NCBI RefSeq assembly: GCF_022865105.1
Contig: NZ_JAKNYM010000001.1
Span: 248,001 to 312,000 of the forward strand
From: Sphingomicrobium astaxanthinifaciens
Lineage (GTDB): Bacteria; Pseudomonadota; Alphaproteobacteria; Sphingomonadales; Sphingomonadaceae
DNA length: 64,000 nt
Direction: 5' to 3'
Part shown: positions 6,519-21,637 of the stretch, piece by piece
How the letters are laid out: each line of letters begins with the position of its first letter
Numbering within the stretch: the stretch's first letter is position 1
Notes under the pieces: model-generated
What the model saw: only the letters and a program-made list of their open reading frames with translations
Told to the model about the DNA's origin: nothing
The model's database searches: none
Program-made: the position numbers and the translations under genes

Positions 6519-6579
6519 TAGATAATCCTCGAGTGACATATTAGCGCTTTATAAGTGCGCACGAACTAGCGTGTCGGGC

Positions 6580-7983
6580 CTAGCGAATTCGTTTGCCGCC
6601 CTTAAGATCGATGGAAATCGGATCCCATTCGAAGATCGTCCAGTCGTCACGCGGACGGTGCGAGCTCAACCAGCTTTCTTTCTGAACATTGCGATCTCGA
6701 AGGGCTTCCAATGCGCCTGAAAGAGACGCTTGGTAATTGGTTTCAGCCTTACAGTAAGAGCCAAAGCTGGCGACCTCACGACGCTCGAGGTTGTGCGCTT
6801 GTTCAAAACTACGCTGGATGCTCTCCAACATACCTTTGCGCCATTCGTCATAATCGGCACGAGGAGAGCTCGAAGTTACCTCATATACCGCTGGTTCGTA
6901 TTGCCGCATGAAGGTCTTCTTTGTCCGACCGTCATCGTACGTATCTGAAAATTGGCAATTCGGGCTATCGACGAACCATTCCGTTCTCATGGCGGCGTCG
7001 CGAGAAGCATTTTTGCGTGCAGAGCGAACGCGGTCACGCCGGCGCTCCTTGGCGCGCGCCCGAGCGATATCCGCCTCTACGATTGCTTCCGATCGCGCTT
7101 TTTGCTTTCCCTGCTCACGTATGCGCTCCCAGCGCTCGTTTCGAGAAGTTGGAGCGCCTGGTATCCGCGGAGGACGCGACGCACGTTCAATCCGCGCGGC
7201 GCCTCGCGCGGTTTCTTGCACAATCGTTTCGGCAACACCGGCCCACATCCGGCGCTCAGCTTCCGCTTTACGGCGTCGCTCGGCCTCCTTGGCTCGCTCA
7301 TGAGCTTCGTCTGCGCGAAGACGTCTCTCTCGCATTGCGGCTCGGTCCGCCGCGAACTGTTCCCGCGAGGCCTTAGCGCTATCCGACCACCTCATAAACC
7401 ATGTCTCGGCGGTATAGCTTCTTTCATCAGGGGCAAAATATATCTCTGCCTCTGGGTCGAGCCCGAGAGCAATAAGTTTGTCGATCGTTGCAAGACGATA
7501 ATCGGGAATGGCCCCTTCATCGGGGTAAGCGACGAAAAGCGCGGTGACGCCTTCGGGGGCTTCATGAAGATCAGCTCCATTGGCCAAAACGAAATCAATT
7601 AACTCGGGAGAAGCCATTCGCGCGGCCTGATGTATAAGAGGAGTCTCAAAGGGTGAATAGCTGCCCCCTTTACGCATAAGAGGCTCAATCCTGCCATCAG
7701 CCCAAACGCGGAGACTGTACCCTTCCTCTTTGTCGGCAGCGAAACGTTTGTAATGGATGTACGCTCCAGTGGAATGTCGCTCACCAACCACTCCCCACCG
7801 GCGCCCCTGAGAATCACGATTGCCAACGAGTTGAGGCAATATCTCAAGCTTGGCCTCGTCCTCTCCCGCCTTTAGCCCTTCGGCACCACCACCTTCCCAA
7901 AAATTATCTTGTGCGAGCGCGGGCCCCGCCAAGACAGTAGACCCGAATAGCAGCATTGTTTTCCATCGCTTATAAGGTGTCAT
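6580..7983 (-). CDS. Secreted family B protein with ankyrin-like N-half (B1)
   Basis: Unknown function, 467 residues. The ATG at 7983 has GGAGGG upstream, and the product starts with a signal peptide ending ALAQ. The N-terminal half includes an ankyrin-like stretch (TPLIHQAARMASPELIDFVL, then ANGADLH). A strongly charged coiled-coil region rich in Glu/Arg (EAERRRKAEAERR) follows, then a basic segment (SRPPRIPGAPTSRNERWERI) and a C-terminal domain of about 130 residues with two cysteines. The last 525 bases are identical to those of the paralogue at 9094, while the N-halves barely resemble each other. It sits between A1 and A2, about 60 bases from each. Confidence 0.68.
   Translation of the reverse strand: MTPYKRWKTMLLFGSTVLAGPALAQDNFWEGGGAEGLKAGEDEAKLEILPQLVGNRDSQGRRWGVVGERHSTGAYIHYKRFAADKEEGYSLRVWADGRIEPLMRKGGSYSPFETPLIHQAARMASPELIDFVLANGADLHEAPEGVTALFVAYPDEGAIPDYRLATIDKLIALGLDPEAEIYFAPDERSYTAETWFMRWSDSAKASREQFAADRAAMRERRLRADEAHERAKEAERRRKAEAERRMWAGVAETIVQETARGAARIERASRPPRIPGAPTSRNERWERIREQGKQKARSEAIVEADIARARAKERRRDRVRSARKNASRDAAMRTEWFVDSPNCQFSDTYDDGRTKKTFMRQYEPAVYEVTSSSPRADYDEWRKGMLESIQRSFEQAHNLERREVASFGSYCKAETNYQASLSGALEALRDRNVQKESWLSSHRPRDDWTIFEWDPISIDLKGGKRIR
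6581..7204. repeat. Direct repeat, copy 1 (identical 3' ends of B1 and B2)
   Basis: Positions 6581-7105 match 9095-9619 without a mismatch (offset 2514). From 7106 to 7204 only three substitutions are seen (first at 7106, T against C), and beyond 7204 the copies diverge sharply. Even synonymous positions are identical, so the copies were duplicated recently or are kept alike by gene conversion. Confidence 0.9.
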
Positions 7984-8049
7984 GCCCAAACCCTCCAAAA
8001 GCATCTATTAGCCTAAAGACAACGCTAGCGAAGTCTCATCAGCGTCTAA

Positions 8050-9021
8050 CTACTCTCTGCGTCCGATCGTAGACTTTTTCAGATCGCACACTTCAGCAAT
8101 CTCTTCGAAAATTTCATTGATAAGAGGGAAGTGTTGCTCAATTCCGACCTGCGGGCTTTCTTGAAAAGCGGTATAAATTGGGAGCATCCCAGATTCGCCC
8201 GAATAGCCTGTCCGCTTGCCTTGAGGCCGTTCGTCAGCAAACCCAATTACTTTTATCGTTTTCGGCGGCCCGCCTTTCGAAGACAATCCGAACCAAGGAC
8301 TTCCGCGAAACAGGGGGTGCGAGTTTTTGGGGTTTTTCTCGAAGCTAAATACAATTCCATCTCCCGGCTCGGTGTAGAAAAACCCATTATAGGTAGCCCT
8401 GGTATAACTATCCCAAATTCCTGAGAGACGCGAGTATTGCTTGCTTGCCTGATGAGAGTAAAAGATTTTGCATTTATATTCAGACGTATGGGGTTCAACA
8501 ATCGAGATACCTACATGATTCTTTGTGCGTCCTTTGGTTTTTTTGTCGAGCCTTTTGATGTTACTTGTAAAATTAAAGGGCCGGAGAGCAATTTTTAACT
8601 TCTTATTGATTGATTCTAGGCGCTCGGGGAAAAGGTGTTCCTTCTGAGCTTGTGCTTTCGCTTCTAAGCGTACCAATTCCTTTTGAGCTTGATCAGACAT
8701 TGCATAGTACTGTGGGATAGAGCTCAATATAGAAGATACGTACCAAGGCTTTTCTAGGCCCAAAAAGATTTCGGCTCGCAAAAGCTCTAATCGCGCATTG
8801 GAAGCCTTGTCGGAGAACTTTTGGTAGTCCCGACGAGCGCTGATCAAGTGCGATAGGGCTTCTTTATACCTTTCGGCCTCTAGGGCGGCGACACTGTCTA
8901 GATAGTGTTGTTTCGCTTGCGTTTCCCAATGAGTTCGATCGGAATTATCTGCGACTTGTGCAAACGCAGATGAGGTGGCCGCCGTCAAATTAAGGTAGGC
9001 TGCAAGAGCAAGGATACGCAT
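8050..9021 (-). CDS. Secreted family A protein, divergent member (A2)
   Basis: Unknown function, 323 residues. The ATG at 9021 with GGAG upstream opens a signal peptide (MRILALAAYLNLTAATSSAFAQ). Residues about 30-150 are helical and TPR-like (WETQAKQHYLDSVAALEAER and following). The C-terminal domain is a distant relative of A1, A3 and A4: it keeps a cysteine in a beta-strand (YKCKIFY), a PGDGIVF segment matching the GDxxxL position of the others, and a late cysteine (EVCDL), but lacks the EEPLPADF motif. The gene has notably lower GC than its surroundings. It lies between B1 and B2 on the same strand. Confidence 0.65.
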   Translation of the reverse strand: MRILALAAYLNLTAATSSAFAQVADNSDRTHWETQAKQHYLDSVAALEAERYKEALSHLISARRDYQKFSDKASNARLELLRAEIFLGLEKPWYVSSILSSIPQYYAMSDQAQKELVRLEAKAQAQKEHLFPERLESINKKLKIALRPFNFTSNIKRLDKKTKGRTKNHVGISIVEPHTSEYKCKIFYSHQASKQYSRLSGIWDSYTRATYNGFFYTEPGDGIVFSFEKNPKNSHPLFRGSPWFGLSSKGGPPKTIKVIGFADERPQGKRTGYSGESGMLPIYTAFQESPQVGIEQHFPLINEIFEEIAEVCDLKKSTIGRRE

Positions 9022-9093
9022 TTTTGGCTCCATTTATGTCAGATTTACGACGATCCACCTCTTTCGCCAGACTGACCGCGAGGTTCGCGCAGT

Positions 9094-10446
9094 TTAGCGA
9101 ATTCGTTTGCCGCCCTTAAGATCGATGGAAATCGGATCCCATTCGAAGATCGTCCAGTCGTCACGCGGACGGTGCGAGCTCAACCAGCTTTCTTTCTGAA
9201 CATTGCGATCTCGAAGGGCTTCCAATGCGCCTGAAAGAGACGCTTGGTAATTGGTTTCAGCCTTACAGTAAGAGCCAAAGCTGGCGACCTCACGACGCTC
9301 GAGGTTGTGCGCTTGTTCAAAACTACGCTGGATGCTCTCCAACATACCTTTGCGCCATTCGTCATAATCGGCACGAGGAGAGCTCGAAGTTACCTCATAT
9401 ACCGCTGGTTCGTATTGCCGCATGAAGGTCTTCTTTGTCCGACCGTCATCGTACGTATCTGAAAATTGGCAATTCGGGCTATCGACGAACCATTCCGTTC
9501 TCATGGCGGCGTCGCGAGAAGCATTTTTGCGTGCAGAGCGAACGCGGTCACGCCGGCGCTCCTTGGCGCGCGCCCGAGCGATATCCGCCTCTACGATTGC
9601 TTCCGATCGCGCTTTTTGCCTTCCCTGCTCACGTATGCGCTCCCAGCGCTCGTTTCGAGAAGTTGGAGCGCCTGGTATCCGCGGAGGGCGCGACGCGCGT
9701 TCAATCCGCGCGGCGCCTTGGGCGACAGCTCCCGCTATCCCTGCCCACATTTGGCGTTCAGCCTGAGCTTTTCGGCGCTCTTCCTCCTGCTCCCAAGCTT
9801 TTGCCGCTAGGCGCTCCCGTTCGCGCTCCGCCTCGCGTCGACGACGCTCCTCTTCGTAGGCCGCCCGCTTTCGGTCTTGCTCCTCGATCCGCCCGCGTTG
9901 GCGCTCCTGCCAAGCCTTGTAACTTTTCCGGCTCGCTTCGTACGACGTATAGGCAGTGTTCCCGAATACATCTTCATGATCTTCGTCGACGCCCGCAGAG
10001 ATAAGCGCATGAGCGATGGCTAAACGCGTCTCGGAAATATCCTCGTCACGGCTCTTAAGTGCGTAAAACAGCACGGTTCGATCATTATTATCCACCCAAT
10101 TGAGATCGGGCTTCTTTGCCAGCACCTGTTCCAAGACCGATAGGTCTTCCCATCGAACCGCAATAAGAAGAGGGGGCATCCCCGGAGTTACTCTCGCACC
10201 CCCACCAGAGAACTTCCCAGTACTGAAGCCTTGTTCTTCGTCGAAGCGAATAAAACGGCCTACAGGCTTGTTACTGGCGACCTCGATCCAATAGGTAGTG
10301 TCGTCGTCGACCGAGACTTGCATATAACGACCGTCAGAGTTCTTGACGGTTTTGAGGTACGCTATCTCCTCTGACGGAATGGAATCCTGCTGAACAAAAA
10401 AAACTCCGTTCGCGAGTGCAAGAATGGTGAAAAAGCTTAGCCGCAT
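9094..10446 (-). CDS. Secreted family B protein with ankyrin-like repeats (B2)
   Basis: Unknown function, 450 residues. ATG at 10446, preceded by GGGA about 8-10 bases upstream. The N-terminal MRLSFFTILALANGVFF is a likely signal peptide or anchor. Residues about 85-165 look like two or three ankyrin repeats (PPLLIAVRWEDLSVLEQVLA; TVLFYALKSRD; ALISAGVDEDHEDVFGNTAY). A long Glu/Arg coiled coil (RKRAAYEEERRRREAERERE) leads into the same basic segment and C-terminal domain as B1. The final 175 codons match B1 at every base. The combination suggests a constant C-terminal module carried on variable, protein-binding N-halves. Confidence 0.68.
   Translation of the reverse strand: MRLSFFTILALANGVFFVQQDSIPSEEIAYLKTVKNSDGRYMQVSVDDDTTYWIEVASNKPVGRFIRFDEEQGFSTGKFSGGGARVTPGMPPLLIAVRWEDLSVLEQVLAKKPDLNWVDNNDRTVLFYALKSRDEDISETRLAIAHALISAGVDEDHEDVFGNTAYTSYEASRKSYKAWQERQRGRIEEQDRKRAAYEEERRRREAERERERLAAKAWEQEEERRKAQAERQMWAGIAGAVAQGAARIERASRPPRIPGAPTSRNERWERIREQGRQKARSEAIVEADIARARAKERRRDRVRSARKNASRDAAMRTEWFVDSPNCQFSDTYDDGRTKKTFMRQYEPAVYEVTSSSPRADYDEWRKGMLESIQRSFEQAHNLERREVASFGSYCKAETNYQASLSGALEALRDRNVQKESWLSSHRPRDDWTIFEWDPISIDLKGGKRIR
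9095..9718. repeat. Direct repeat, copy 2 (identical 3' ends of B1 and B2)
   Basis: Partner of 6581-7204, in the same orientation. The 525-bp perfect block is 9095-9619. The 2.5 kb between the copies contains the rest of B1 and all of A2, so recombination between the copies would delete A2 and produce a B2/B1 hybrid. Confidence 0.9.
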
Positions 10447-10573
10447 CACACTGATCCCAGTTTGAATCTAGACGTGACAACCTCTCACATCATTCGACCC
10501 AATACAATAATCGAGATTGCAGTCTTTCAGCATAGATCACGACTTGAGCACTCACAAGCGTCGGAGAATTGCA

Positions 10574-11206
10574 TCAATGATTCGCTGCTGAGGGCTCCGC
10601 CGCCTGCCCGGGCCTTTTCGAAATTATGTCGAAGCCGCACTCTCGCCCGATCGAGCTGAACAGATCCGTATATTTTTGGGTGTCAACATCGCCTTTGTTA
10701 TCACCGTCTAGTTTTCTATAGTAAATCGGCATCCATTGAAAACTATTATCGGCGATCACCTCGCGCCCACTTAAATATTTATTCCTAATTACTATGTAGT
10801 TAAGTCCTCCATCTGATTTCTTATGTCCAACATAGAGGTTTCTCGGAAAATCAGCGGGCAACGGCTCCTCTGCTATGGGCTCGAACGGGATCTCCAACAA
10901 GTAAATCGTATCCCCTGGCCTAGCGGAAATGTTTGCGGAATAAGCCTCTAGCAGAAAAGGCGGATTAGAGGGCTTGTCATCGTAAACGTATCTTCCGGAG
11001 ATTTCAACAATGCACTGGTTGTCCGCATATCTTTCGAGACTGATTTCACCTCGCCAATGTCCTTTGTAGCCATTCTCGTGAATTGACGAGACATTCCAAT
11101 CTCGATTGATGTCCTCTATTTGAGACTGCAATTGCCTCCACCTCGGACCGGAATCGTAAGGTTGACTGCCAACTAAAATCGACGCCGCGACCACAGAAAT
11201 AAACAT
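10574..11206 (-). CDS. Secreted family A protein, short form (A3)
   Basis: Unknown function, 210 residues. ATG at 11206 with AAGGGG upstream; a start 11 codons earlier is open but less likely. A short signal peptide (MFISVVAASILVGS) leads straight into the family domain without a TPR-like segment. Family landmarks: W-x-x-LQ near the start, NQCIVEI, PGDTIYLLEIPF, EEPLPADFPRNL, LSGREVI and RECGFDI. Both conserved cysteines are present. It is the first gene of the minus-strand run and is divergent from A4, sharing the 145-bp gap 11207-11351. Confidence 0.68.
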   Translation of the reverse strand: MFISVVAASILVGSQPYDSGPRWRQLQSQIEDINRDWNVSSIHENGYKGHWRGEISLERYADNQCIVEISGRYVYDDKPSNPPFLLEAYSANISARPGDTIYLLEIPFEPIAEEPLPADFPRNLYVGHKKSDGGLNYIVIRNKYLSGREVIADNSFQWMPIYYRKLDGDNKGDVDTQKYTDLFSSIGRECGFDIISKRPGQAAEPSAANH

Positions 11207-11351
11207 TTCGACCCCTTGTATCCTGGTTAATTCAGTCACCGACTTTCGTCGAAAAGTATGGAAACATCAATAATCAGGGCTATGGCGATTGACCGGTGAG
11301 AATGGCAACATTTAAGTAGGCCTTTCTCGAAGGAAAGAGATGCAAGGGGGC

Positions 11352-11966
11352 ATGATGAAATATTCTGGATTGCTGTTGGCCGGTCTGTTCTGCGTGGTTG
11401 GCTCCTCAGGCCATGCGCAAGACAGGGGAGGTGACTGGGCCACTCTGCAAGCGGACGTTGCGAGCTTTAATGATGGCTACAAGCTCACTTATCACCAAGA
11501 CTATTTATACACTGAAATCGTCGGCAGCGTAGCCATCGCTCGCGATGACGACGGGCGTTGTCGATTTTCTTTTTCAAAGCAGAGCAGTGCGATCGTCCCA
11601 GAAAATAACAAGTCTCTGACCGAAACTTGGAAAGTCGCTGATTTCACCGTCGAAGATGGTGATGACTTTCTGCTCATAACACTTCCGTTTCAGACGAACG
11701 GGGAAGAACCGCTGGCAGCAGACTTTCCAAAAAATCTTGTCATTGCAGTGCAGAATTCGGAAGGGAAACCGAAAATAATCACGAGCAAAAAAACATATTT
11801 TAGTGGGCGGGAGTTGATTGACGATCCGACTGAGCCAGGGTTTTTCGTTTATGACAGGGCGATCACGGCGGACATAACTGGTGAAATTCAAACGCAACCA
11901 CTCATCGCAATTTTGAAGAACGCTGCCACGCAGTGTGGGTTCGCGCTGCATGAACGAGAGATGTAG
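11352..11966 (+). CDS. Secreted family A protein, short form (A4)
   Basis: Unknown function, 204 residues. ATG at 11352 is preceded by AAGGGGG; an ATG four codons earlier is less suited. The signal peptide ends GHAQ. The mature protein is the simplest version of the family A domain and is closest to the C-terminal half of A1: DWATLQ, YKLTYHQDY, GRCRFSF, LPFQTNGEEPLAADFPKNL, KIITSKK, SGRELIDDP and TQCGF. The two cysteines are conserved. It is the only member on the plus strand. Confidence 0.68.
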   Translation: MMKYSGLLLAGLFCVVGSSGHAQDRGGDWATLQADVASFNDGYKLTYHQDYLYTEIVGSVAIARDDDGRCRFSFSKQSSAIVPENNKSLTETWKVADFTVEDGDDFLLITLPFQTNGEEPLAADFPKNLVIAVQNSEGKPKIITSKKTYFSGRELIDDPTEPGFFVYDRAITADITGEIQTQPLIAILKNAATQCGFALHEREM

Positions 11967-12622
11967 GTTCAAGCACGATATGGAGCCCGGCAGTATTTGC
12001 AGGAGGACAGACCCGACCTTTAGCCAGCGCCATATTCGTTCGTATTTTCGGATCGCACGAGCCGTGCGGGCACCTGCCGTTAGCACAGAACGTCTTCGAA
12101 CTTTTGACCCGTCACCTAGCAAAGAAATCTGCTTTCACCTGCAAATGGATCAGAGCAGCAAGGGACAAACGCCCGGGAAGCCCCGTCCTTCATTCGCGAA
12201 TGACCGATATGGTGCGCCTCTCACCCGTCCCTGAACCACCGAAATCGGGCGCTAAGCGGACATCAATTTCGCCTCCAGACTTGAATTTCCCAATGATTTG
12301 AGTGCCCATCTTTGTTACGCCGGGCGCACCATTTCTCAAAAACCTCAATATCAAGCCATTCTTCTGGCAGGCGAAATATCGAATGTGGGCACCAACGACC
12401 GCCTCTGGGCCGTAAGCTGACTGTCCGGTTGTAAAATGGCAGGCTGGGAAAGCAGACGCTGGGCGGGGTGGCGGATTGGCTAGGACCGCGTGATCTCTCA
12501 TTGTTGAGGTGCCGGCACTACGCGAACAACGCCAAGGTTAGGAGTATGGCTTCATTGCCGAGGCTTTGCTTCGCAAAATCTAGAACTCTGCGCGACTATT
12601 GTGCGGAGTGAAGCATTAGCGA
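11967..12622. other. 656-bp stretch with no convincing gene; two dispersed repeat copies
   Basis: No frame here has a ribosome-binding site together with protein-like sequence. Two segments belong to the dispersed repeat: 12243-12266 (containing TCGGGCGCTAAGCGGAC) and 12403-12430 (containing TGGGCCGTAAGCTGACTGTC). The first shares its 17-base core exactly with the copy at 17012. A minus-strand frame of 103 codons (12190-12501) runs through both repeats and is probably chance. The segment lies between convergent genes (A4 and the DUF6527 gene), so a terminator would be expected, but I see no strong hairpin with a T-run. Confidence 0.5.
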
Positions 12623-13018
12623 CTAGGCCTTTCTGATTTTTCGCGCGATCCACTTCCAAAAACGCTTCCACCATGGAGCATTGAGATCATCGTAGTAGCG
12701 CTCACGGCGAAGCTGTTCGGCTCTTCGACCCGCCATGATTTCCTCTTCCGTCCACTGGGCACACCATTTTACCCGACCGTTCGTGATGAAATAGTGCGAA
12801 CGGCATGGCCTCTGCCAATTGCCGACTGAAGGGCGCAACGTCGGATTTTTGTCCGAGCCGGCCAAACGCCATTCGGTCGGAAGTATGGGCGTACGTATCT
12901 TCGAACCGCAGCCACACGCGCATAAATGCGCAGCGGTCTCGAACTCGTCAGACACATACAGTACCCCCGGTTCGAGTTGCTTCGGCATGAAATGGACGCG
13001 CTCAACCTCAAAGTTCAT
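12623..13018 (-). CDS. DUF6527 family protein of a ubiquitin-like cassette
   Basis: 131-residue protein, third gene of the Ubl cassette; its ATG (13018) overlaps the end of the E1-like gene by 11 bases. A cysteine cluster HLCACGCG (Cys33, Cys35, Cys37) and PCRSHYFITNGRVKWC (Cys72, Ser74, His75, Cys86) are the recognisable family features. The C-terminus is basic and tryptophan-rich (APWWKRFWKWIARKIRKA), perhaps membrane- or nucleic-acid-associated. In other bacteria DUF6527 proteins sit beside multiubiquitin and ThiF/E1 genes, and a deconjugating peptidase role has been considered. The Cys cluster could bind zinc, while Ser74-His75 would suit a hydrolase. The assignment rests on motif memory and on context. 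Confidence 0.72.
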   Translation of the reverse strand: MNFEVERVHFMPKQLEPGVLYVSDEFETAAHLCACGCGSKIRTPILPTEWRLAGSDKNPTLRPSVGNWQRPCRSHYFITNGRVKWCAQWTEEEIMAGRRAEQLRRERYYDDLNAPWWKRFWKWIARKIRKA

Positions 13019-14216
13019 CGATCGTTCTCACATTAATGACGCTCAGATCTGCTATTTCGAAGAGACTGTTGATGTTCGCTTCAGCGCTTCGGTAAAATTC
13101 GCGAAGCTGCTTGTAGCGGATCATGGCAAGACATGCGTTCAGTGCGTTGAGCTCACTAATCTGAATATTATCGCGATAAAGATTGTCCGCTCCATCTGCT
13201 GTCTCGGCAAGTCCTTTCGCCTTTAGCTCCCTTGCAATCCCTGGCTCGAAATAGGTGGCCCTCATCATTCCGCTGATGGGTCCATCCTTCCGTTTTAGGC
13301 CCATACCGACATCGATGAATGGGATGCCGAGCTCGATCAATAGATCAAAGATTTCGTTTCGGGCCGAACCCTTATCGACGCAAACAAAAGCAAACGTCAC
13401 CCCTTCGAGCTCTTCAGCTGACTCACTCGTGATGTAGTTAGCTCTTAGCGAGAGGCCATGGCGGAATGGCTCGTACCGCGCTTGATAGACGTCCGCCTTT
13501 TTGCATCCGAGCTCTGCCTCGTCGAGTTTTCCTGGCGATCTGTAGGCATTGTGGACGTGAAAGTCGTCGCCATCGAAGCCAACGATGTTTGGAATGCGCG
13601 CCTTAACCGCATAATCGAGGAGGAAGGCGCCAGTACCACCCAGTCCGATAATCGCGATCTTTTCGTCGGCGAACCCTGCATTGAGTTCAGCAATGCCGGC
13701 TCGGCTCGTCAAGGTATCCTGGAGTTTGAATATCGCATCCTTAACTTCAGTCTTGTCCGCTCTGTACGTGTATGGCGTGACCATATGTTTCTCGATGGCC
13801 GGCCCCGAAATAATGGCTACGTAACTCTCGATCTTTTCAAAGTGGTCGGCGAATTTTCCAGTGGCTTTGGGTTTGTTGGAGAACGAGCGCTGCACAACAA
13901 CGTCCGAGTGCTCAGCAGCCAGCGCGATGGAAGTTGCCCCCCCACCCAAATTCAGAATCTGCCGACCTTGAAGATCATATGGATGCGATCCCGCGAAATA
14001 GATTTGGTGATCCTGCTGCTGCATCACTTCGCCATCGACCGACACAAGCTTGGAAACGATTGCGCCCGACTGCAAATTCCCGGCGGAGTCGAGATAGGGA
14101 ATATCCCTCACGATCAGGTGACCTTGATCGAAAGCGACGGCGTAACCTCGCTCGACAAGTCGAGCGAGGTCCTGATTACGACTGACCAGTTTCTGAAACA
14201 CTGAACCGCATCCCAT
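13008..14216 (-). CDS. ThiF/E1-like adenylyltransferase with N-terminal DUF6791-type region
   Basis: 402-residue E1-like enzyme predicted to adenylate the C-terminus of the neighbouring Ubl protein. Residues about 1-140 (SRNQDLARLVERGYAVAF, HLIVRDIPYL, HPYDLQG) form an extension of DUF6791 type. The Rossmann adenylation domain begins near 185: GLGGTG (191-196), Asp215 in FDGDD, then Asn223 and Arg226, so the ATP-binding residues look intact. FVCVDKGSARNEIFDLL and NIQISELNALNACLAMIRYK are characteristic of this subgroup. No obvious crossover cysteine loop of eukaryotic E1s is seen; candidate cysteines are 238 and 362. The ATG at 14216 overlaps the Ubl gene by 41 bases; a GTG at 14201 is an alternative. 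No E2 gene accompanies it. Confidence 0.82.
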   Translation of the reverse strand: MGCGSVFQKLVSRNQDLARLVERGYAVAFDQGHLIVRDIPYLDSAGNLQSGAIVSKLVSVDGEVMQQQDHQIYFAGSHPYDLQGRQILNLGGGATSIALAAEHSDVVVQRSFSNKPKATGKFADHFEKIESYVAIISGPAIEKHMVTPYTYRADKTEVKDAIFKLQDTLTSRAGIAELNAGFADEKIAIIGLGGTGAFLLDYAVKARIPNIVGFDGDDFHVHNAYRSPGKLDEAELGCKKADVYQARYEPFRHGLSLRANYITSESAEELEGVTFAFVCVDKGSARNEIFDLLIELGIPFIDVGMGLKRKDGPISGMMRATYFEPGIARELKAKGLAETADGADNLYRDNIQISELNALNACLAMIRYKQLREFYRSAEANINSLFEIADLSVINVRTIDEL

Positions 14217-14430
14217 CCTTGATTTTCACCGAAGCGCCAGCGACCAACGTGCCTTCCGGCTTGTTGCCCTGACCCCGTTTGTAGGTCACCGAATAGGTGA
14301 TGTTGGGGTTATCGGCGTAGCTGGGCTCTTCCAGCGTCACGGCCTCCTCGTAACTGATCTCATCTTTCGACCACGGATGCGGAGTGCCCTCTACATAAAT
14401 TGTCACTTCTTTCGTTTCATTCTTAGCCAT
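14176..14430 (-). CDS. Multiubiquitin-type ubiquitin-like protein (single Ubl domain)
   Basis: 84-residue protein that reads as one beta-grasp ubiquitin-like domain of the bacterial multiubiquitin family: VTIYVEGTPHPWSKDEISYE at its start, ITYSVTYKRG in the middle and LVAGASVKIKDGMRFSVSET near the end. It is the likely substrate of the E1-like enzyme encoded just downstream. The C-terminus ends TGQS rather than Gly-Gly, so either conjugation uses another terminus, or processing is needed, or the protein serves another role. Start: ATG at 14430 (MAKNETKEV) is preferred; ATG 14445 and GTG 14460 are also open. It is the first gene of the cassette, about 60 bases from its -10 box. Confidence 0.75.
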   Translation of the reverse strand: MAKNETKEVTIYVEGTPHPWSKDEISYEEAVTLEEPSYADNPNITYSVTYKRGQGNKPEGTLVAGASVKIKDGMRFSVSETGQS

Positions 14431-14491
14431 GGGGCTGCCTTTCATGCTGTCACACGCCACTACGTTCAGCGCCGCTTCATCAATAATTAGC

Positions 14492-14561
14492 TATATAATG
14501 GCTGGACAGTAGCTAGTCAATAGCCATGAGGTGTTGACATTTTGGCTTTGAATCGTATTTT
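14492..14561. promoter_or_regulatory. Divergent sigma-70-type promoters with overlapping inverted repeat
   Basis: Minus strand (toward the Ubl cassette): TTGACT at 14520-14515, a 17-base spacer, then TATATA at 14497-14492. Plus strand (toward the RHH-GNAT-XRE-ImmA operon): TTGACA at 14534-14539, a 16-base spacer, then TATTTT at 14556-14561. An inverted repeat ATGGCT (14498-14503) / AGCCAT (14522-14527) spans the minus-strand promoter and is a candidate operator. The two promoters are only 13 bases apart at their -35 boxes, so one bound regulator could control both directions. The RHH and XRE proteins encoded next door are the obvious candidates. Confidence 0.7.
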
Positions 14562-14585
14562 GGCGACCCCGAATGGAGAGAGGAC

Positions 14586-14798
14586 ATGGCAACCAAACGA
14601 ACAATGACACTCAACCTTACTGACGCGGAAATGTCGGTGGTTGAGGACTTCAGCGCACGAAAGGACATGAGCAAAACCGCGGTCTTGCGGCAGGCTCTGC
14701 GCCTTTACCAGCTGCTTGAGGCTCGTGTCGAAAAGGGCGACAAACTCTACGTCGAGAATGAAGCTACGAAGGACAAAGCCGAGATCATGATGGTATGA
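14586..14798 (+). CDS. Ribbon-helix-helix (CopG-like) protein
   Basis: 70-residue protein with a short beta-strand (TMTLNLTDAEMSVVEDFSAR) followed by two helices, as in ribbon-helix-helix DNA-binding proteins. It probably dimerises and binds the nearby inverted repeat. A strong GGAGAGGA site precedes the ATG at 14586. It is the first gene of a four-gene operon, and its stop overlaps the next start (ATGA). Small RHH proteins paired with GNAT-type proteins occur as antitoxins of acetyltransferase toxins, so that role is possible. Confidence 0.7.
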   Translation: MATKRTMTLNLTDAEMSVVEDFSARKDMSKTAVLRQALRLYQLLEARVEKGDKLYVENEATKDKAEIMMV

Positions 14799-15436
14799 GT
14801 GAAAATGGTCTAAGGGTAACGTTGCTTGATACCGCAACAGGAGAGCCTCGCGAGGCCGAGCTGCTGTCGTCAATCACCGAGAAGCAATTGACTGATGTAG
14901 AAGGCGAGTGGAAGCCGGCCCTCTATGACCGCTTTCGTGAATTCAATCGCGCGGGTAAGCCGCCGACCGAGTGGCCTGGCACCGAGAATAAGCATTGGGA
15001 TTGGCGTCAAAAAGTTGAGAAGCTGCAAGGATTGCTTTCGCATGACGGCTATTGCCTGACCTGCCAAGGCATGACTGAGGGGCTGATGTTGATCGATACG
15101 AGCAGTTATCGCTGTCGTTTGCCCGAAAACGAGAAGCGAAACTTGGTCTACATTGACTATGTCGAGAGCGCGCCTTGGAATAGGCCGGAGCTAGAACAGG
15201 TGCCCCGTTACCGTGGCATCGGCAGCATTCTGGTAGGCGCCGCGATTGAACGCAGTATCGCCGAAGAATTCAAGGGCCGTATCGGCCTACACGCTCTTCC
15301 GCAGGCTGAGCCTTTCTACAGCGCTACCTGTGGCATGAGTGACCTCGGACGCGACGACACAAAACAGGGATTACGATATTATGAGATGACGGCTGCACAA
15401 GCAGAAGCGTTCATCGCGAAAGGAAATAATCGATGA
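14795..15436 (+). CDS. GNAT-like acetyltransferase domain protein
   Basis: 213 residues. Residues about 140-200 carry a GNAT-type core: RYRGIGSILVGAAIERSIAE resembles the acetyl-CoA-binding motif (R-x-x-G-I-G), followed by GRIGLHALPQAEPFYSATCG and a closing strand (GLRYYEMT). The N-terminal 120 residues are unusual for GNATs, with a CLTCQG pair of cysteines near residue 88. Translationally coupled to the RHH gene and to the XRE gene by ATGA overlaps on both sides. It could modify a protein of the cassette, act as a toxin neutralised by the RHH partner, or have another substrate. Confidence 0.65.
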   Translation: MSENGLRVTLLDTATGEPREAELLSSITEKQLTDVEGEWKPALYDRFREFNRAGKPPTEWPGTENKHWDWRQKVEKLQGLLSHDGYCLTCQGMTEGLMLIDTSSYRCRLPENEKRNLVYIDYVESAPWNRPELEQVPRYRGIGSILVGAAIERSIAEEFKGRIGLHALPQAEPFYSATCGMSDLGRDDTKQGLRYYEMTAAQAEAFIAKGNNR

Positions 15437-15909
15437 GCACTCATATGACCATGGAGTGGTGCCTTAGAATGGCAGAGCTCGAGGGCAACGCTTCGATCGC
15501 TGCAGGCGCGTTAGCGCTTGACCCCGTTTTTGAGGAAGCGCCTGCTGTGGCTGATGCAGATGAGGCCAATGTTGCATTCGGCCGCTTTGTGCGACTCATG
15601 CGTCGTTCGCGAAGGATGTCGCGTGAGCAGCTCGCCGAGCAAGCAGATATCGACATTAAAGAGCTTATCGAGATCGAGGACGATGTAAGGCATAAGCCGG
15701 ATATCCGCTCCGTCTATCAGCTATCACGCGTGTTCAAGCTCCCCAGCGCAAAGCTCATGCATGTTGCCGGCCTGGCCAAGGCTCGCAACGACAATCTTGA
15801 GCGTCACATGGAACGATTTGCCGCACGCTCTGACCCTATGGCGGACCTGACAGATGAAGAACGCGCGGCTTTAGAGGATTTCGTTGCGCAACTAAGTTTG
15901 GACAAATGA
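15433..15909 (+). CDS. XRE-family helix-turn-helix regulator
   Basis: 158 residues with a Cro/C1-type HTH at about 50-110: FVRLMRRSRRMSREQLAEQA is the scaffold and recognition part, followed by SVYQLSRVFKLPSAKLMHVA. An N-terminal extension of about 45 residues and an acidic C-terminal tail flank it. Directly upstream of an ImmA/IrrE protease gene, which is the classic arrangement in which the protease cleaves or inactivates the XRE repressor. It probably regulates the divergent promoter region. ATGA overlap with the GNAT gene. Confidence 0.85.
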   Translation: MSTHMTMEWCLRMAELEGNASIAAGALALDPVFEEAPAVADADEANVAFGRFVRLMRRSRRMSREQLAEQADIDIKELIEIEDDVRHKPDIRSVYQLSRVFKLPSAKLMHVAGLAKARNDNLERHMERFAARSDPMADLTDEERAALEDFVAQLSLDK

Positions 15910-15934
15910 TAGACACTCGCCAAAGGGGGCATGA

Positions 15935-16879
15935 TTGGCAAAGAACCGAATTCTCTCGGAAAGAACTACAGCAGATATCGACCGCCGGGTTGCGAAGGTG
16001 TTGGATGGCCTTGGTAACCCGGAGCCCCCTTTGGAGTTGTCCGATGTTCGCCAGCTTCTGCGGCTAGATAGACAATTCTACACAGCTGACGACACAGGTG
16101 CGGTTCGAGAGACTGTCAGTCGAATAAAGGTCGCAACAGTCCAAATCTACGAGCGGCCTAAGCTCCTCCTCGAAGCTATTCGGAAGATGTCGCTAAAGGC
16201 ACTCTACCTACCAGACCAACGCCGGATCCTGCTCGATGAAAACGAGCCTAAGTTGAAGCATCGATGGAACGAGGGTCACGAAATTGGCCATAGTTTGCTG
16301 CCGTGGCACCATGACGTCATGCTTGGCGACAATGGCTTTACCTTGTCTCATGATTGCCACGATCAGATCGAAACGGAAGCCAACTACGCGGCCGGTCAGC
16401 TGCTGTTCCTTCAGGGTCGCTTCGCCAACGAAGCCTTGGACCTCGCACCAACGCTCGACAATGTGAAGGAGCTCAAGGGCACGTTTGGCAATACGTTTTC
16501 GACTACGCTGTACCGGTTCGTTGAGCTTCGTGGCCGGGAAGTACCGATGGTCGGGATGATTAGCGCCCACCCACATCAATCAAGGCGTCCAGCGAATTTT
16601 GATCCAGCAAAGCCTTGCCGACATTTTATTCAGTCGCCCGCATTTGCTGACCAGTTCAGCCGTCAATCGGAGGTTGAAGTATTTCGAACCATAGCCAGCT
16701 ATTGTGGCTCTCAGGGAGGCGGCCCGCTCGGAGAGAGTGAGCTAATTCTGACTGATGACAATGGCGCTCAGCACCGCTTTTTCTTCGAAACCTTCTTCAA
16801 CCGTTATGACGCTCTTACGCTTGGCTCATATCTGAAGCCGGAACCCATTAAGATCTGCGGATCGGCTTCGATTTTCTAG
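15935..16879 (+). CDS. ImmA/IrrE-family metallo-endopeptidase
   Basis: 314-residue predicted zinc protease. HEIGH at 115-119 gives the two histidine ligands and the catalytic Glu116, and IETEANYAAG (about 145-154) supplies the third ligand, as in ImmA and IrrE. The likely target is the XRE protein encoded 25 bases upstream. The start is a TTG at 15935 with a strong site (AAAGGGGG) 6 bases before it; the nearby ATG at 15931 is out of frame. The C-terminal 140 residues (from about YCGSQGG and FFFETFFNRYDALT) are outside the protease core and may sense a signal. Last gene of the operon. Confidence 0.87.
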   Translation: MAKNRILSERTTADIDRRVAKVLDGLGNPEPPLELSDVRQLLRLDRQFYTADDTGAVRETVSRIKVATVQIYERPKLLLEAIRKMSLKALYLPDQRRILLDENEPKLKHRWNEGHEIGHSLLPWHHDVMLGDNGFTLSHDCHDQIETEANYAAGQLLFLQGRFANEALDLAPTLDNVKELKGTFGNTFSTTLYRFVELRGREVPMVGMISAHPHQSRRPANFDPAKPCRHFIQSPAFADQFSRQSEVEVFRTIASYCGSQGGGPLGESELILTDDNGAQHRFFFETFFNRYDALTLGSYLKPEPIKICGSASIF

Positions 16880-17009
16880 TCGGTCGAGCAAGGGATCCTG
16901 TTCACTACCGGTTCGTCTGCAAGTGCGCGGACCACATCCCAGCAGCTAAGAACTAGAGGGCATAAATAGTCCGTTATCAGCATCCGCGCCGTCGAGAGCG
17001 AATGTCCGA

Positions 17010-17034
17010 TATCGGGCGCTAAGCGGACGCCCCC
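17010..17034 (+). repeat. Copy 5 of the dispersed repeat, at the integrase 3' end
   Basis: TCGGGCGCTAAGCGGAC (17012-17028) is identical to 12245-12261. Here the repeat supplies the stop codon and last codons of the integrase on the opposite strand. It overlaps a perfect palindrome CCGATATCGG just to the left. The gap 16880-17018 between convergent genes holds no other recognisable element. Confidence 0.5.
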
Positions 17035-19007
17035 CCCAACCAGCGACCATTGGGGTCGGTTTGCTCGCATTCGACGTCGGGGACCACTCCACGAAAGATC
17101 GGCATGTTAAGCGGCGCCGGCTTTAGATGTGCCGTCAGATTTGGAAGATGCTCTATGTTCTCCAACATCTCCTCCAACCTCGTCGCGAGCGTATAGCGCT
17201 CATCGGTCTCGCCTTCTCCGGCATGACCCATCATGTCAGCGCGCTCTTCCTTACTGACCCGTTCACGTCGCAGCTTTGCGTTGAAGCCGTGCCGGAAGCC
17301 GTGGATATCGCTCTCCGGCGATAAGCCGCCTCGCTTGCGCATGTGCGACCAGGCTAGATCATAGAACTGATCTCCCAAGCTCTCGGAGGAATTGGTCGGT
17401 CGAAGCTCGGGGAAGAGTGCTTTGCAATCGCGCTTGGCGATCTCGCGGACATAGTCGACGAGGCCAAGCCTAATGAGCTCGGGGTGTAGAGGAAGTCGCC
17501 GGTCGGAGGCCGCTGTCTTGATCTTCCCGTTGTGATTTTCGCGGATATGCACGTAGGGGATCCGCGCATCCAGGACGAAATCGCATGCACAGAGCTTGCA
17601 AATCTCCTCGCGCCGGCACCCGAGATAATGGATCATGATCGGACACCAGTAGAAGGCGTCGTGAACAATGGTCTTGCCCGGTGTGAAGCGCTTCTTGAGG
17701 ACGACCGCCCCCTTCCCCCCGTTGTGCTTGAGCGAACCCGTAAAGGTGGGAAGCGCGAACAGTTTTTCGAGATCCTCCACGCTGGTCGGCGGACGTTCAT
17801 CGCGCGCTCGCTTGGCACGCGCGCCTTTCTTGATGCGAAGCCTTTTTAACTTCAGCCCCGCATCGATCGAATAGCCCTGCCCTTCAGCCCACTCGAAGAG
17901 CGTGCTCAGCCCGGTGACGTCACGATTGATGGTGGTCGCGCTCGGTGCGTTCTCGATTGACTCGTTCGACCGCTCGCCAGCTTCGACGAGCTCGAGGATA
18001 ATCTTCGCCTCCTTCTCGTTTCGAGGGCTGAGCTTGCGATTGATGAAGCGGCGCTTCTTCATGAAGGTCGCCATATGCTGCTGCGTAATCGAGGAGACGG
18101 GAAGCTCCCCCATCAACAGCGTGAAGAGCTTCGCCAGCGTTCGGCGTTGGCGCCCCGTCTTCGGGGACCATTCCCCATCGGCGATTTTCGCCTCCGCGGC
18201 TCGCTGAGCGATTTCATATAGGTCTGGGGAGGTATCGACTGCCTCGGCGTCTGATGCAGCTTGTGCGGGGGACGCAGAAGGACTGACAGGCTCCGGTGAC
18301 GTCGGAGTCTGCCAAACCGGCTGCACCGGTGACGGCCAAACCGGCGGATACACCGGCTGCTGCGCATAGCGTGACCGCGGTGGGTATCCGCGCATAATGG
18401 CGTCTGCATCCTGACAGGCATCGCGATAGGGCTCATACATCGCCGCCGTGACCTGTCGTCGGTGACCGTCATGCGGCTCGATGCCCATGTCGCGAAGGCG
18501 CGCGTCGATGAAGCGGGGCTTGATGAACACATGTCCCTGCTCTTCGAGCGCAATCACCGCCTCGAGTTCTTGCACGCGGCGAACGCCCCACTTCGCCACC
18601 AATACCTCGCGCTCGGCGTCGGTCAGCGGCGCCGGGCCACCGCGCTCACGGCAGCGCTCATAATGGTCGGCAAAGGCACGGTTCGCGATCGCATGCGTAT
18701 CGACGAGCTGCGGCGAGCATCTTTGCTGTTCGCAGAACCGTCCCAGAAGTTCGTCATAGGCCTGGCGCGCGATCGCCTGGACCTCGCTTTCCGTTAGCCG
18801 CGCGTCTGCCGCACGGATCCTCTGTTCGAGCATCAGCTGCACTTCCCCCGTGGACGCGGTCAGAAAAGCCCCCCGGCAGACCGCCTCCTGTTTTTGATAT
18901 GTTCTCAAGGATATACGCAGATCGAGGGGTCGAAAAGCGGAAGTTGAAATTTTTCTGCGCCACCAGAAAATTCGGCCGCGAAGATAGATGTTGGGGAGTG
19001 TCGTCAT
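17019..19007 (-). CDS. Large tyrosine recombinase (integrase) of the island
   Basis: 662-residue site-specific recombinase, predicted to integrate and excise the element at the adjacent tRNA-Gln gene. The N-terminus MTTLPNIYLRGRIFWWRRKI is typical of a large integrase class in alphaproteobacteria. Catalytic parts lie in the C-terminal third: Arg in LGCRREEICKL, HGFRHGF (His and Arg), MGHAGEG (His) and a Tyr in DERYTLA. A Pro-rich spacer near residue 220-250 (PVYPPVWPSPVQPVW) splits N-terminal and catalytic regions. The frame is open up to 19142, inside the tRNA, but the ATG at 19007 is where the conserved N-terminus starts. It is transcribed away from the tRNA, standard for an integrase at the tRNA-side end of an island. 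Confidence 0.92.
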   Translation of the reverse strand: MTTLPNIYLRGRIFWWRRKISTSAFRPLDLRISLRTYQKQEAVCRGAFLTASTGEVQLMLEQRIRAADARLTESEVQAIARQAYDELLGRFCEQQRCSPQLVDTHAIANRAFADHYERCRERGGPAPLTDAEREVLVAKWGVRRVQELEAVIALEEQGHVFIKPRFIDARLRDMGIEPHDGHRRQVTAAMYEPYRDACQDADAIMRGYPPRSRYAQQPVYPPVWPSPVQPVWQTPTSPEPVSPSASPAQAASDAEAVDTSPDLYEIAQRAAEAKIADGEWSPKTGRQRRTLAKLFTLLMGELPVSSITQQHMATFMKKRRFINRKLSPRNEKEAKIILELVEAGERSNESIENAPSATTINRDVTGLSTLFEWAEGQGYSIDAGLKLKRLRIKKGARAKRARDERPPTSVEDLEKLFALPTFTGSLKHNGGKGAVVLKKRFTPGKTIVHDAFYWCPIMIHYLGCRREEICKLCACDFVLDARIPYVHIRENHNGKIKTAASDRRLPLHPELIRLGLVDYVREIAKRDCKALFPELRPTNSSESLGDQFYDLAWSHMRKRGGLSPESDIHGFRHGFNAKLRRERVSKEERADMMGHAGEGETDERYTLATRLEEMLENIEHLPNLTAHLKPAPLNMPIFRGVVPDVECEQTDPNGRWLGGASA

Positions 19008-19110
19008 TGGTCTGGCCCAAGGTAGGGGCACAGTGAGGGGCACAACCTGGGGCACACTCCTCACCGGCCGGTGGGGCTTTTCCAGATGTTTCAACGACTT
19101 GTTTGAAAAA

Positions 19111-19140
19111 TGGCTGGGGTGGCAGGATTCGAACCTGCGC
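19111..19140 (-). other. Putative attachment site (3' end of tRNA-Gln)
   Basis: Integrases of this type commonly recombine at the 3' half of a tRNA gene. The T-arm and acceptor 3' end of tRNA-Gln, on the integrase side of the gene, are the likely core. No second copy was found between 1 and 19000, so the other attachment site should lie left of the window. The position is inferred from gene order and the base-composition change. Confidence 0.5.
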
Positions 19141-19185
19141 ATGGCGGTACCAAAAACCGCTGCCTTACCACTTGGCTACACCCCA
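19111..19185 (-). tRNA. tRNA-Gln (anticodon TTG)
   Basis: The minus strand folds as a full cloverleaf: acceptor TGGGGTG pairs with CACCCCA, the D-arm contains AGCCAAGTGGTAAGGC, the anticodon loop TTTTGGT presents TTG, the T-arm contains GGTTCGAATCC, and discriminator G plus encoded CCA completes it. It is intact, so insertion of the element to its left has rebuilt the 3' end. Confidence 0.97.
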
Positions 19186-19252
19186 TGAGCCGGGCGCGCT
19201 TATAGCGCGTGGGACGCGATTGAAAAGGGGCGCGTGAACAAACGCGCGGGGA

Positions 19253-21637
19253 TCAGGCGATGTCGCGGCGGTGCTGCGCCATGTCGACCACATTAACCCC
19301 GAGGATCTCGGGGCGCCCAAACAGGAAGCCCTGCAGGCTGCCGACCCCCAACTCGCGCATGACATCGGCCTGCGCGGTGGTCTCGACCCCCTCCGCGGTG
19401 GTCTCGATCCCTAGCCCGGTAGCGAGCGCGAGGATCGCGTTGACGATGGCCACGCACTGCTGGTCGCCCGCCGCCGCCGCGCGCACAAAGCTCGCGTCGA
19501 TCTTGACCTTGGAGAAATGCGCGCGGCTGAGGTAGCCGAACGAGGAGTAGCCCTTGCCGAAATCGTCGAGCACCATCCGCACGCCGAGCCCGCGCAACCG
19601 CTCGATCGAGGCGAGCGTGTCTGGATCATCGCCGAGGAAGATGCTCTCGGTAACCTCGAGCTCGAGCCGGTGTGGGTGCAGCCCCGACAACGCCAGCGCG
19701 TTGACGACCGTCTTGGCCAGCCCCGCCCCGCTAAGTTGCGCCGCCGAGACGTTGACCGCGACCCGGACCTGGTCGTCCCAGTTGGCGGCCTCGTTGCAGG
19801 CCTCGCGGATCACCCAGTCGCCGATCTGGTGGATGAGCCCGGAATCCTCGATGATCGGGATGAAGCGGTCGGGCGCGATTTCGCCGCGCGTCGGGTGGCG
19901 CCAACGCAGGAGCGCCTCGCGTCCCACCATCTTGCCAGTGCGCGCATCGACGATCGGCTGATAGGCGAGCCGCATGTCGTCGTTCTTAAGCGCCTCGCGC
20001 ACGTCGTTCTCGAGCAGCCGGTGGTCTTCCGCCGCCTCAAGCATGGCGCGATCGTAGAAGGCATAGCCGCCGCGCCCCGAGCGCTTGGCGCTGTAGAGCG
20101 CAAGGTCGGCCGAGCGCATCATCCGATCCTCGCGATTGCCGTCGTCGGGGCCGATCGCGATGCCGATAGTCGCGCCGACATTGATGTTGGCCGCGCCGAT
20201 GGTGACCCCGCGGCTGACCTCGGCGACGACGCGCTCGGCTAGCCCCGAAAGCGAATAGCGGTCGATGTCGCCGTGCCAGATGATCGCGAATTCATCGCCC
20301 CCCAGCCGCCCGACATGGCCACCATCCCCGACGACATGCGCCAGCCGTTCGGCGATCGCGCACAGCAGCTTGTCCCCGATGGCATGACCGAGCGTGTCGT
20401 TGACCAGCTTGAATCGGTCGAGATCGACCAGCAGCAGCGCGCAGCCGCCATGGCTGTTCATCTGCCCGAGTAGCGCCTGTTCGAGCAGCTCGCGGATCAG
20501 CAGGCGATTGGCGATACCGGTGAGCGGGTCCGAGCGCGCCGCGCCCAGCGCGTCGGCATTGGCTGTGCGAGATTCGGTGACGTCAGAGGCGACCCCCTTC
20601 CAGCCGATGAGCTTGCCGTCGTCGTCATAATGCGGGCGCCCCGACAGGGACCACCAGCGGTCGGTGAACACCTGCGGCACGACGACGTCGCGAAAGGGCA
20701 GCTCCTCGCGAAAATAGCTGAAGAGCTGGCGCACGCCCGAGCTCATGTTGCGATAGCGCCCGTCGGGATCAATCATCTTGAATACCGACCGGCCGCGGAC
20801 CTTCTCAGCGGACAGATCGATCGCAGCGGTCAGCGCCTGGCTCATCTTGGTGAAATTGAGATCGGCGTCGAGCTCCCACAGCCCGCCCGAGCCGGGCGCG
20901 TCGAGTTCGCGCAGCAGCTCGACCAGCTCGCCCATCTCGGACAATTCCATCTGGCTGCGGGTCTGGACGAACAATTCGCGCCCGATCACCAGCGAGGCCA
21001 GCACCAGCGCCATGCAATAGAAGAGGACGAGCGCGGCGAGCGCGGGGCTGCCATGCTGGGCCGCAATCATGAAGCCCCCGACTGACATCAGCACGGTATA
21101 GGCCACTGCGGCCGGGGGCACGTAGACCAGCATGAAGGCGCCAGTGCTCATCAGGATCACCCCCATGCCCGCGATCACCAGCTGCTGCGAGGGCGGCAGC
21201 TCGCCGAACCAGAGCAAGGGCACTGCCCACCACAGGACGGTGGTCGCGACCGTCCCCAGCGTGGCTGAGGCGAAGGTGGCGGGCTGCCGGGCGCGATAGT
21301 CGGCGTCGTGGTTGAGCCGGTGGTGGCGCATCGCGAATAGCCCGCACAGAATGGTACAGGTCCCCAGCCACATGCTCAGTTCGAGCGCCGAGACATAGGG
21401 CGCCATAACGGTGGCCTGAACCGCCGCCATGAACAGGTTGCCCATGATGACCTTGGGGCTGATGCGAGTGAACTGGTTGACCTGCCGCCAGCGTACGGCG
21501 CGGATCAGCGCCTGGCGTCCGCTATCAACCTTGAGCAGGTCGCCGAAGGAGAAGGACGAGGGGGGCAGATGCGGGGCGTGCGACGGCGAGCCGCGACGCG
21601 ACACCGCCCCTTCGCTGCCCTTTGTCTTCCCACCCAC
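19253..21637 (-). CDS. Membrane-bound GGDEF-EAL c-di-GMP enzyme
   Basis: 794 residues. Several hydrophobic helices between about 60 and 215 form a membrane sensor region. A PAS-like segment follows (GLWELDADLNFTKMS; WWSLSGRPHYDDDGKLIGWK). The GGDEF domain keeps the LGGDEF motif near residue 445, and the EAL domain keeps GREALLRW near 573, LEVTES and DDFGKGYSSFGYL, so both synthesis and breakdown of cyclic di-GMP are possible. First core gene beyond the tRNA; monocistronic by appearance. The signal sensed is unknown. Confidence 0.93.
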   Translation of the reverse strand: MGGKTKGSEGAVSRRGSPSHAPHLPPSSFSFGDLLKVDSGRQALIRAVRWRQVNQFTRISPKVIMGNLFMAAVQATVMAPYVSALELSMWLGTCTILCGLFAMRHHRLNHDADYRARQPATFASATLGTVATTVLWWAVPLLWFGELPPSQQLVIAGMGVILMSTGAFMLVYVPPAAVAYTVLMSVGGFMIAAQHGSPALAALVLFYCMALVLASLVIGRELFVQTRSQMELSEMGELVELLRELDAPGSGGLWELDADLNFTKMSQALTAAIDLSAEKVRGRSVFKMIDPDGRYRNMSSGVRQLFSYFREELPFRDVVVPQVFTDRWWSLSGRPHYDDDGKLIGWKGVASDVTESRTANADALGAARSDPLTGIANRLLIRELLEQALLGQMNSHGGCALLLVDLDRFKLVNDTLGHAIGDKLLCAIAERLAHVVGDGGHVGRLGGDEFAIIWHGDIDRYSLSGLAERVVAEVSRGVTIGAANINVGATIGIAIGPDDGNREDRMMRSADLALYSAKRSGRGGYAFYDRAMLEAAEDHRLLENDVREALKNDDMRLAYQPIVDARTGKMVGREALLRWRHPTRGEIAPDRFIPIIEDSGLIHQIGDWVIREACNEAANWDDQVRVAVNVSAAQLSGAGLAKTVVNALALSGLHPHRLELEVTESIFLGDDPDTLASIERLRGLGVRMVLDDFGKGYSSFGYLSRAHFSKVKIDASFVRAAAAGDQQCVAIVNAILALATGLGIETTAEGVETTAQADVMRELGVGSLQGFLFGRPEILGVNVVDMAQHRRDIA

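Follow-up and report, generated by a model that had tools for sequence, protein, structure and literature searches.

The window, a stretch of 64,000 nucleotides from Sphingomicrobium astaxanthinifaciens (NZ_JAKNYM010000001.1, positions 248,001 to 312,000), was analysed around an operon encoding a ubiquitin-like protein (Ubl), an E1-like enzyme and a DUF6527 protein. An earlier note on this DNA had described a single-domain Ubl gene and its two partners as an overlapping operon that diverges from a four-gene operon. This was confirmed from the open reading frames (ORFs) and Pfam. All seven ORFs were found at the positions and in the order it gave; the Ubl, E1 and DUF6527 genes overlap as one operon, and a cassette of four genes, for a ribbon-helix-helix (RHH) protein, a GNAT-type protein, an XRE regulator and an ImmA-type protease (M78), lies back to back with it. 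The genes are as follows, with positions counted from the first letter of the window.

12623-13018, minus strand: DUF6527 protein, with a putative zinc site C33 C35 C37 ... C72 H75.
13008-14201, minus strand: E1-like enzyme with N-terminal DUF6791 and C-terminal ThiF adenylation domain; start moved to GTG 14201.
14176-14201, minus strand: out-of-frame overlap (26 nt) of the Ubl end and the E1 start.
14176-14430, minus strand: Ubl, a single Multi_ubiq beta-grasp domain with the C terminus ...FSVSETGQS; ATG at 14430, with GTG at 14460 as an alternative start.
14586-14798, plus strand: RHH protein (CopG-like), 70 residues; Pfam 14 bits, under the cut-off of 23.4; relatives annotated ribbon-helix-helix/CopG.
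14795-15436, plus strand: GNAT-type protein, 213 residues; Pfam 9.6e-5 and 22.8 bits, just under the cut-off of 23.6; relatives annotated GNAT.
15433-15909, plus strand: XRE/helix-turn-helix (HTH) regulator in a CapH-like position; Pfam HTH_19 8e-12, PADLOC capH only 5e-4.
15935-16879, plus strand: ImmA/IrrE-type metallopeptidase (HEIGH), CapP-like, with a TTG start; Pfam Peptidase_M78 3.6e-6, PADLOC capP 2e-11.

The Ubl matched Multi_ubiq (PF14452) at 1.4e-13 and 51.3 bits, which passes the Pfam gathering score of 24.5 bits, and its profile search matched PDB 9cd2 at 1e-5. The E1-like enzyme was assigned from DUF6791 (1.8e-40) and ThiF (6e-9) in Pfam, its NCBIfam name being PRK06153.1-2 (565 bits, cut-off 419), and the third gene from DUF6527 (7e-26, Pfam). 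The E1 alignment held the window and 70 of 74 candidate references, and that of DUF6527 the window and 68 of 76. The residues of the E1 adenylation domain were conserved and no cysteine was invariant; the conserved residues, which we take to be those of the adenylation site, support the earlier claim that this site is intact. The putative metal residues of DUF6527, spaced C33-x3-C37-x34-C72-x2-H75, were conserved across its alignment. A partial literature search on DUF6527 found no paper.

The trio was followed through a survey of 113 loci, made up of the window, 20 genome stretches from its order, 7 loci on plasmids, 5 viral contigs and the best 80 of the 563 stretches confirmed in the genome scan. 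Counts of E1 refer to 107 loci, six with a split or short E1 being excluded, and counts of Ubl to 106, one more being without upstream DNA. At least 596 matching stretches were obtained in the genome scan, at least 563 of which encode a relative. Among 72,556 plasmid records the E1 was found in 121, and of these 40 are typed as conjugative and 50 as mobilizable. The Ubl gene lies upstream of E1 at all 106 loci with enough flank, and DUF6527 downstream at 102 of 106. GTG 14201 is most likely the E1 start, rather than ATG 14216, because relatives start there and 85/106 loci have a start codon that gives an identical overlap of 26 nt. The remaining 21 loci comprise 12 with an ATG 15 nt further upstream (a 41-nt overlap), eight in which E1 starts past the Ubl stop, and one that is frameshifted.

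The absence of an E2 is the norm of the DUF6791 branch. An E2 profile made from JAB-type relatives matched 0/113 surveyed loci. For the window, this profile gave no match within positions 8001-20000, and a genome-wide search, which covered Prok-E2_E among the prokaryotic E2 families, reached a best score of 11.8 bits (cut-off 25). JAB was likewise absent from the window E1, for which Pfam gave only DUF6791 at the N terminus; Prok-JAB was found in 5/6 other E1s scanned. The fold matches of the E1 cover residues 153-397, with BubCD on top and with ThiF, MoeB and MccB also among the structural matches. The Bub system has a separate BubB, presumably E2-like, and a BubCD that probably carries JAB, to judge from its name and a D104A mutant, whereas the E1 of the window has DUF6791 instead, and its surroundings yielded no E2 gene. 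Structure titles for the Citrobacter proteins BubA, BubB and BubCD (9ea4, 9ea5, 9ea8, 9eae and 9eav) include a BubCD complex with BubA and BubB.

The C terminus of the Ubl also proved to be a family trait, as Ubls beside a DUF6791-E1 lack the Gly-Gly end. Serine is the last residue in 104/106 and alanine in two; the ending T-x-x-S occurs in 103/106, and 73 of these read TGQS. TGQS is retained at eight loci without the Ubl/E1 overlap, and therefore it appears to be the protein, rather than the overlapping frame, that is under selection. The C terminus of PDB 9cd2, VTQTDKS, is of the same type, and JAB-type Ubls fused to E2 have a different ending. The earlier note was therefore right that an E2 is missing and that the TGQS end is real; its suggestion that either is exceptional did not hold, both being the norm of the branch.

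The closest described arrangement is operon type 6e of Iyer, Burroughs and Aravind (2006; PMC1779556). According to the available part of that paper, a subset of its E1s has at the N terminus a domain X where others have JAB, its Ubls have one to three domains (a solo Ubl in one species), its distribution is mobile, and an E2/RWD-like domain, separate or fused, is optional. It also includes a metal-binding protein Y with the signature C-x3-C-x35-38-H-x2-C. The window resembles the domain X branch in that a single operon encodes a Ubl and an E1 whose N-terminal domain is not JAB. The E2/RWD-like component that type 6e may have was absent from the E2 profile search of the 113 loci. Protein Y ends in H-x2-C, whereas DUF6527 ends in C-x2-H, the last pair being reversed and the other zinc-type residues fitting. 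We infer that domain X corresponds to DUF6791 and protein Y to DUF6527. The trio is no one-off: it belongs to a mobile class of operons already described, and the two features singled out as odd are traits of that class. Its place as a branch of the bacterial type-6e Ubl operons that lacks both E2 and JAB is considered probable.

The control cassette was also found beside operons other than the trio. Among 95 related loci with more than 4 kb upstream, M78 was a divergent neighbour at 56/95, XRE at 45/95 and either at 58/95. RHH and GNAT were added at 4/95, where the E1s are down to 33% identical. Homologues do not always occur apart from the four-gene operon, an outcome that the earlier note had named as refuting its reading: all seven genes were found together in five records including the window (four distinct), although RHH and GNAT are missing at 91/95 related loci. 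Cassette neighbours were typed by annotation, Pfam and profiles, and the GNAT plasmid loci comprise 17 of the 30 records among the matches listed, out of 52 matching. The order RHH-GNAT-XRE-M78 is kept at 20 records examined, of which 19 are distinct because the E1s of L052 and L156 are identical. Five lie beside DUF6791-E1 operons (the window, L039, L041, L052, L156) and nine beside JAB-E1/E2 operons (L157, L158, L162, L165, L166, L169-L172; at L165 not divergent). Five of these nine E1s were scanned with Pfam, L169-L172 being typed by annotation and the E2 profile. One further cassette lies beside an E1-N/Mov34 operon (L174), three beside cyclic-oligonucleotide-based antiphage signalling systems (CBASS; L159-L161) and two beside other genes (L163, L173). 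Within the order of the window, the GNAT was found in 5/296 genomes, in all five beside a Ubl-E1 operon. Because the four genes also occur beside other immune operons, the cassette is deduced to be a general controller and not a dedicated Ubl partner. The protease-XRE pair of the earlier note is supported by the divergent M78 and/or XRE genes at 58/95 loci.

The region between the two operons holds the following features.

14488-14526, no strand: operator-like array TAGCTA, TGGCTG, TAGCTA, TAGCCA with an 11-bp period, overlapping the putative Ubl promoter.
14515-14520 (-35) and 14492-14497 (-10), minus strand: putative Ubl promoter TTGACT-17-TATATA, a consensus match only.
14534-14561, plus strand: promoter-like TTGACA-16-TATTTT for the RHH operon, a consensus match only; one found against 0.4 expected from shuffles.

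Upstream of RHH, boxes near the self-palindrome TAGCTA were observed once per 11 bp. The regions scored were 190 bp upstream of RHH at cassette loci and, at cassette-free loci, 250 bp upstream of the Ubl gene plus 30 bp inside it. The best three-box score lay above all 200 shuffles at 18/20 cassette loci (scores of 14-18 out of 18), and the period of 11 stood out (15.85 against 9.8-12.2). At cassette-free Ubl loci (n = 102) the three-box score was never above 12, and genome-wide a three-box site was found once, in the window.

The cassette resembles CapH+CapP in its adjacent HTH and ImmA-type protease genes, divergent from an immune-type operon, and differs in that the operon is led by the extra RHH and GNAT genes and has the TAGCTA-like 11-bp array at its promoter. 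The accessible portion of a study of Bub operons gives CapH+CapP or CapW at 219/544 of them (PMC13373217). A site with the same box is described for RptR of a defence island in enteropathogenic Escherichia coli, whose binding site in the island promoter consists of the palindrome TAGCTA in three direct repeats; in the text as available, RptR forms a helical dimer that is compared with HTH regulators, and its repeats have a period of 9 bp (PMC12255303). The box is identical to that of the window, whereas the period (9 against 11 bp) and the regulators differ; a term search of the available text gave no mention of ribbon-helix-helix, GNAT or acetyltransferase (PMC12255303). The identity of the two boxes may reflect convergence or a common history. 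No report of the four-gene cassette was found in the literature on CapH/CapP, CBASS and ribbon-helix-helix/GNAT/ImmA, the coverage being partial and confined to main texts, and the searches being aimed at the cassette and not at the T-x-x-S end; the ribbon-helix-helix/GNAT/ImmA matches listed deal mostly with toxin-antitoxin pairs. What looks new is the control half, apparently a portable extension of CapH+CapP.

Several arrangements of regulators and neighbours were observed beside these. Two cyanobacterial GNAT relatives, on plasmids of Trichormus (L164) and Calothrix (L175), occur without RHH, XRE and M78 and were excluded from the 20 cassette records; the Trichormus gene has a DNA methyltransferase on one side and, on the other, a gene annotated as DISARM drmD. 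In Marinibacterium pLA6_010 (L173), an annotated Cas9 gene follows the cassette, with a gene for a DNA invertase on its divergent side. In two marine plasmids (L062, L063) the gene for a small DUF2188 protein immediately precedes that of the Ubl, and in L163 such a gene diverges from the cassette. In two Rhizobium plasmids (L058, L059), a gene for a RecB-like nuclease precedes the close E1 relatives, and a divergent CapW-like regulator of the WYL type occurs there together with a dGTPase; the type of regulator therefore looks exchangeable.

From the gene content and its conservation, we hypothesized that the locus encodes a damage-inducible, E2-independent system for Ubl activation, and we favor this reading with reasonable but far from complete confidence. 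The E1 would adenylate the Ubl C terminus, and the Ubl would be passed to its target without a thioester E2, either directly from the adenylate or via the DUF6791 domain; DUF6527 may trim, remove or target the Ubl. RHH, perhaps together with XRE, would repress the divergent promoters from the array. Single-stranded DNA may switch on the ImmA-type protease, as with CapP, so that repression would be lifted and the Ubl operon induced upon phage infection or damage. With similar confidence, the RHH-GNAT-XRE-ImmA set is predicted to be a self-contained controller, probably stress-sensing. A bolder version is held tentatively, as a possibility short of an even chance: the Ubl would be attached via its conserved C-terminal serine (T-x-x-S-COOH) without a relay of E1 and E2 cysteines, with DUF6791 in the place of E2 as well as JAB, and the portable RHH-GNAT-CapH-CapP cassette with its 11-bp TAGCTA array would be a plug-in DNA-damage controller traded among Ubl, CBASS and other immune operons. 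A defensive role is suggested through guilt by association. If these proposals are correct, a large bacterial Ubl branch does not need any recognisable E2, JAB or Gly-Gly end, and its transfer chemistry should differ from that of ubiquitin; different immune operons would have in common a single exchangeable cassette for their control, with an operator that can be read, and operons silent until damage or infection would be predictable from DNA alone.

A number of observations weigh against this interpretation. Neither DUF6791 nor DUF6527 had a function-supporting match in Pfam or PDB profile searches, and the window RHH and GNAT assignments are both under the Pfam cut-offs. M78 and XRE are both divergent at only 43/95 loci, and at 10/95 an M78 match lies upstream on the same strand. 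The 20 cassette records are partly related (L052 and L156 have 100% identical E1s and identical upstream DNA, L158, L169 and L170 are close, as are L162 and L172), and the M78 of L163 is short or broken. The array is weak at L174 (score 11, reached by 25/200 shuffles and under the best cassette-free loci) and at L165 (score 13, reached by 1/200). In 14/20 loci, a count without shuffle control, the array shares positions with the best of the promoter-like matches found on the operon strand.

The absence of an E2 could theoretically also be explained by DUF6791 being a cryptic E2-like domain, the E1 then being a self-contained E1-E2 enzyme of an architecture known in kind; an E2-like E1 N terminus is the second finding that the earlier note had named as refuting its reading. 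DUF6791 stands N-terminal to ThiF, the place of E2-like domains in other bacterial E1s (PMC1779556, available part), the E1s with DUF6791 are precisely those without an E2, and the predicted order of helix, beta-meander and long helix in the DUF6791 model looks UBC-like by eye. However, hhalign against a Prok-E2_E-like profile gave a probability of 0.2%, no E2-like match for the E1 N terminus was obtained in Pfam or PDB profile searches, and no cysteine is invariant; an identity with JAB is equally unsupported (0.4%). A cryptic E2 was accordingly deemed somewhat unlikely. The lack of both E2 and JAB, the non-Gly-Gly end and the matches to ThiF, MoeB and MccB would also suit a Ubl-E1 pair that makes a small-molecule or sulfur-carrier product, in the manner of ThiS, MoaD or MccB, instead of protein conjugates. 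The top structural matches are nevertheless BubCD, and at the seven E1 plasmid loci examined no thiamin, molybdopterin or microcin genes were annotated, immune-type controllers recurring there instead; such a product is considered improbable.

The cassette can similarly be read in two other ways. GNAT toxins with DUF1778 antitoxins form a large type II family, according to the portion of PMC9177977 available, and RHH-GNAT could be an independent TacAT-like toxin-antitoxin pair beside XRE-ImmA that does not regulate the Ubl operon. This is unlikely in our estimation, as the order and orientation of the four genes are kept at the 20 records (19 distinct) whatever kind of operon adjoins them, and the array lies in the promoter region common to both sides. 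That XRE-ImmA is instead an ImmR/ImmA-like switch of the mobile element receives some support from the position of the window protease gene, which adjoins the integrase, and from an ImmR-like regulator module that governs a Streptococcus integrative element in the accessible text of PMC10233336. This was judged the least likely of the alternatives, since in several phyla, on plasmids as well as on chromosomes, XRE-ImmA stands in divergent orientation to the Ubl operon, and since it recurs beside CBASS.

The locus lies on an integrative element of about 20 kb at a tRNA-Gln gene, as the earlier note's mobile element had led one to expect.

208-3045, minus strand: MobA/MobL relaxase (Pfam 9.3e-14).
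17019-19142, minus strand: tyrosine recombinase ORF (Pfam Phage_integrase 2.6e-7); the true start is probably internal, as the ORF extends into the tRNA.
19074-19130, no strand: right-end att-like repeat, including the tRNA-Gln 3' end.
19111-19185, minus strand: tRNA-Gln, the integration target.
About 246747-246803 of G000 C1, just beyond the left edge of the window: left att-like repeat copy.

The direct repeat has 57 bp with three mismatches and contains the tRNA-Gln 3' end, its copies being 20.3 kb apart; both marks of a tRNA-integrated element, a recombinase and a direct repeat at the tRNA end, were found. The G+C content is 46-62% across kb 1-19 of the window, against 63-74% beyond. A short ORF for a UvrD-like helicase also lies inside the element. 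Near the left end, beside the full-length relaxase, is another ORF of MobA/MobL type, a short one (L182, 10937-11536 of G000 C1, left of the window), at a Pfam value of 5.9e-5, under the cut-off. The ORFs at 5571-6539, 10574-11239 and 11340-11966, two of which were scanned with no Pfam match, appear to form a single family with a PLPADF/PLAADF-type motif. Those at 6580-8004 and 9094-10449, one of them scanned with no Pfam match, are a paralogue pair with almost identical C-terminal halves.

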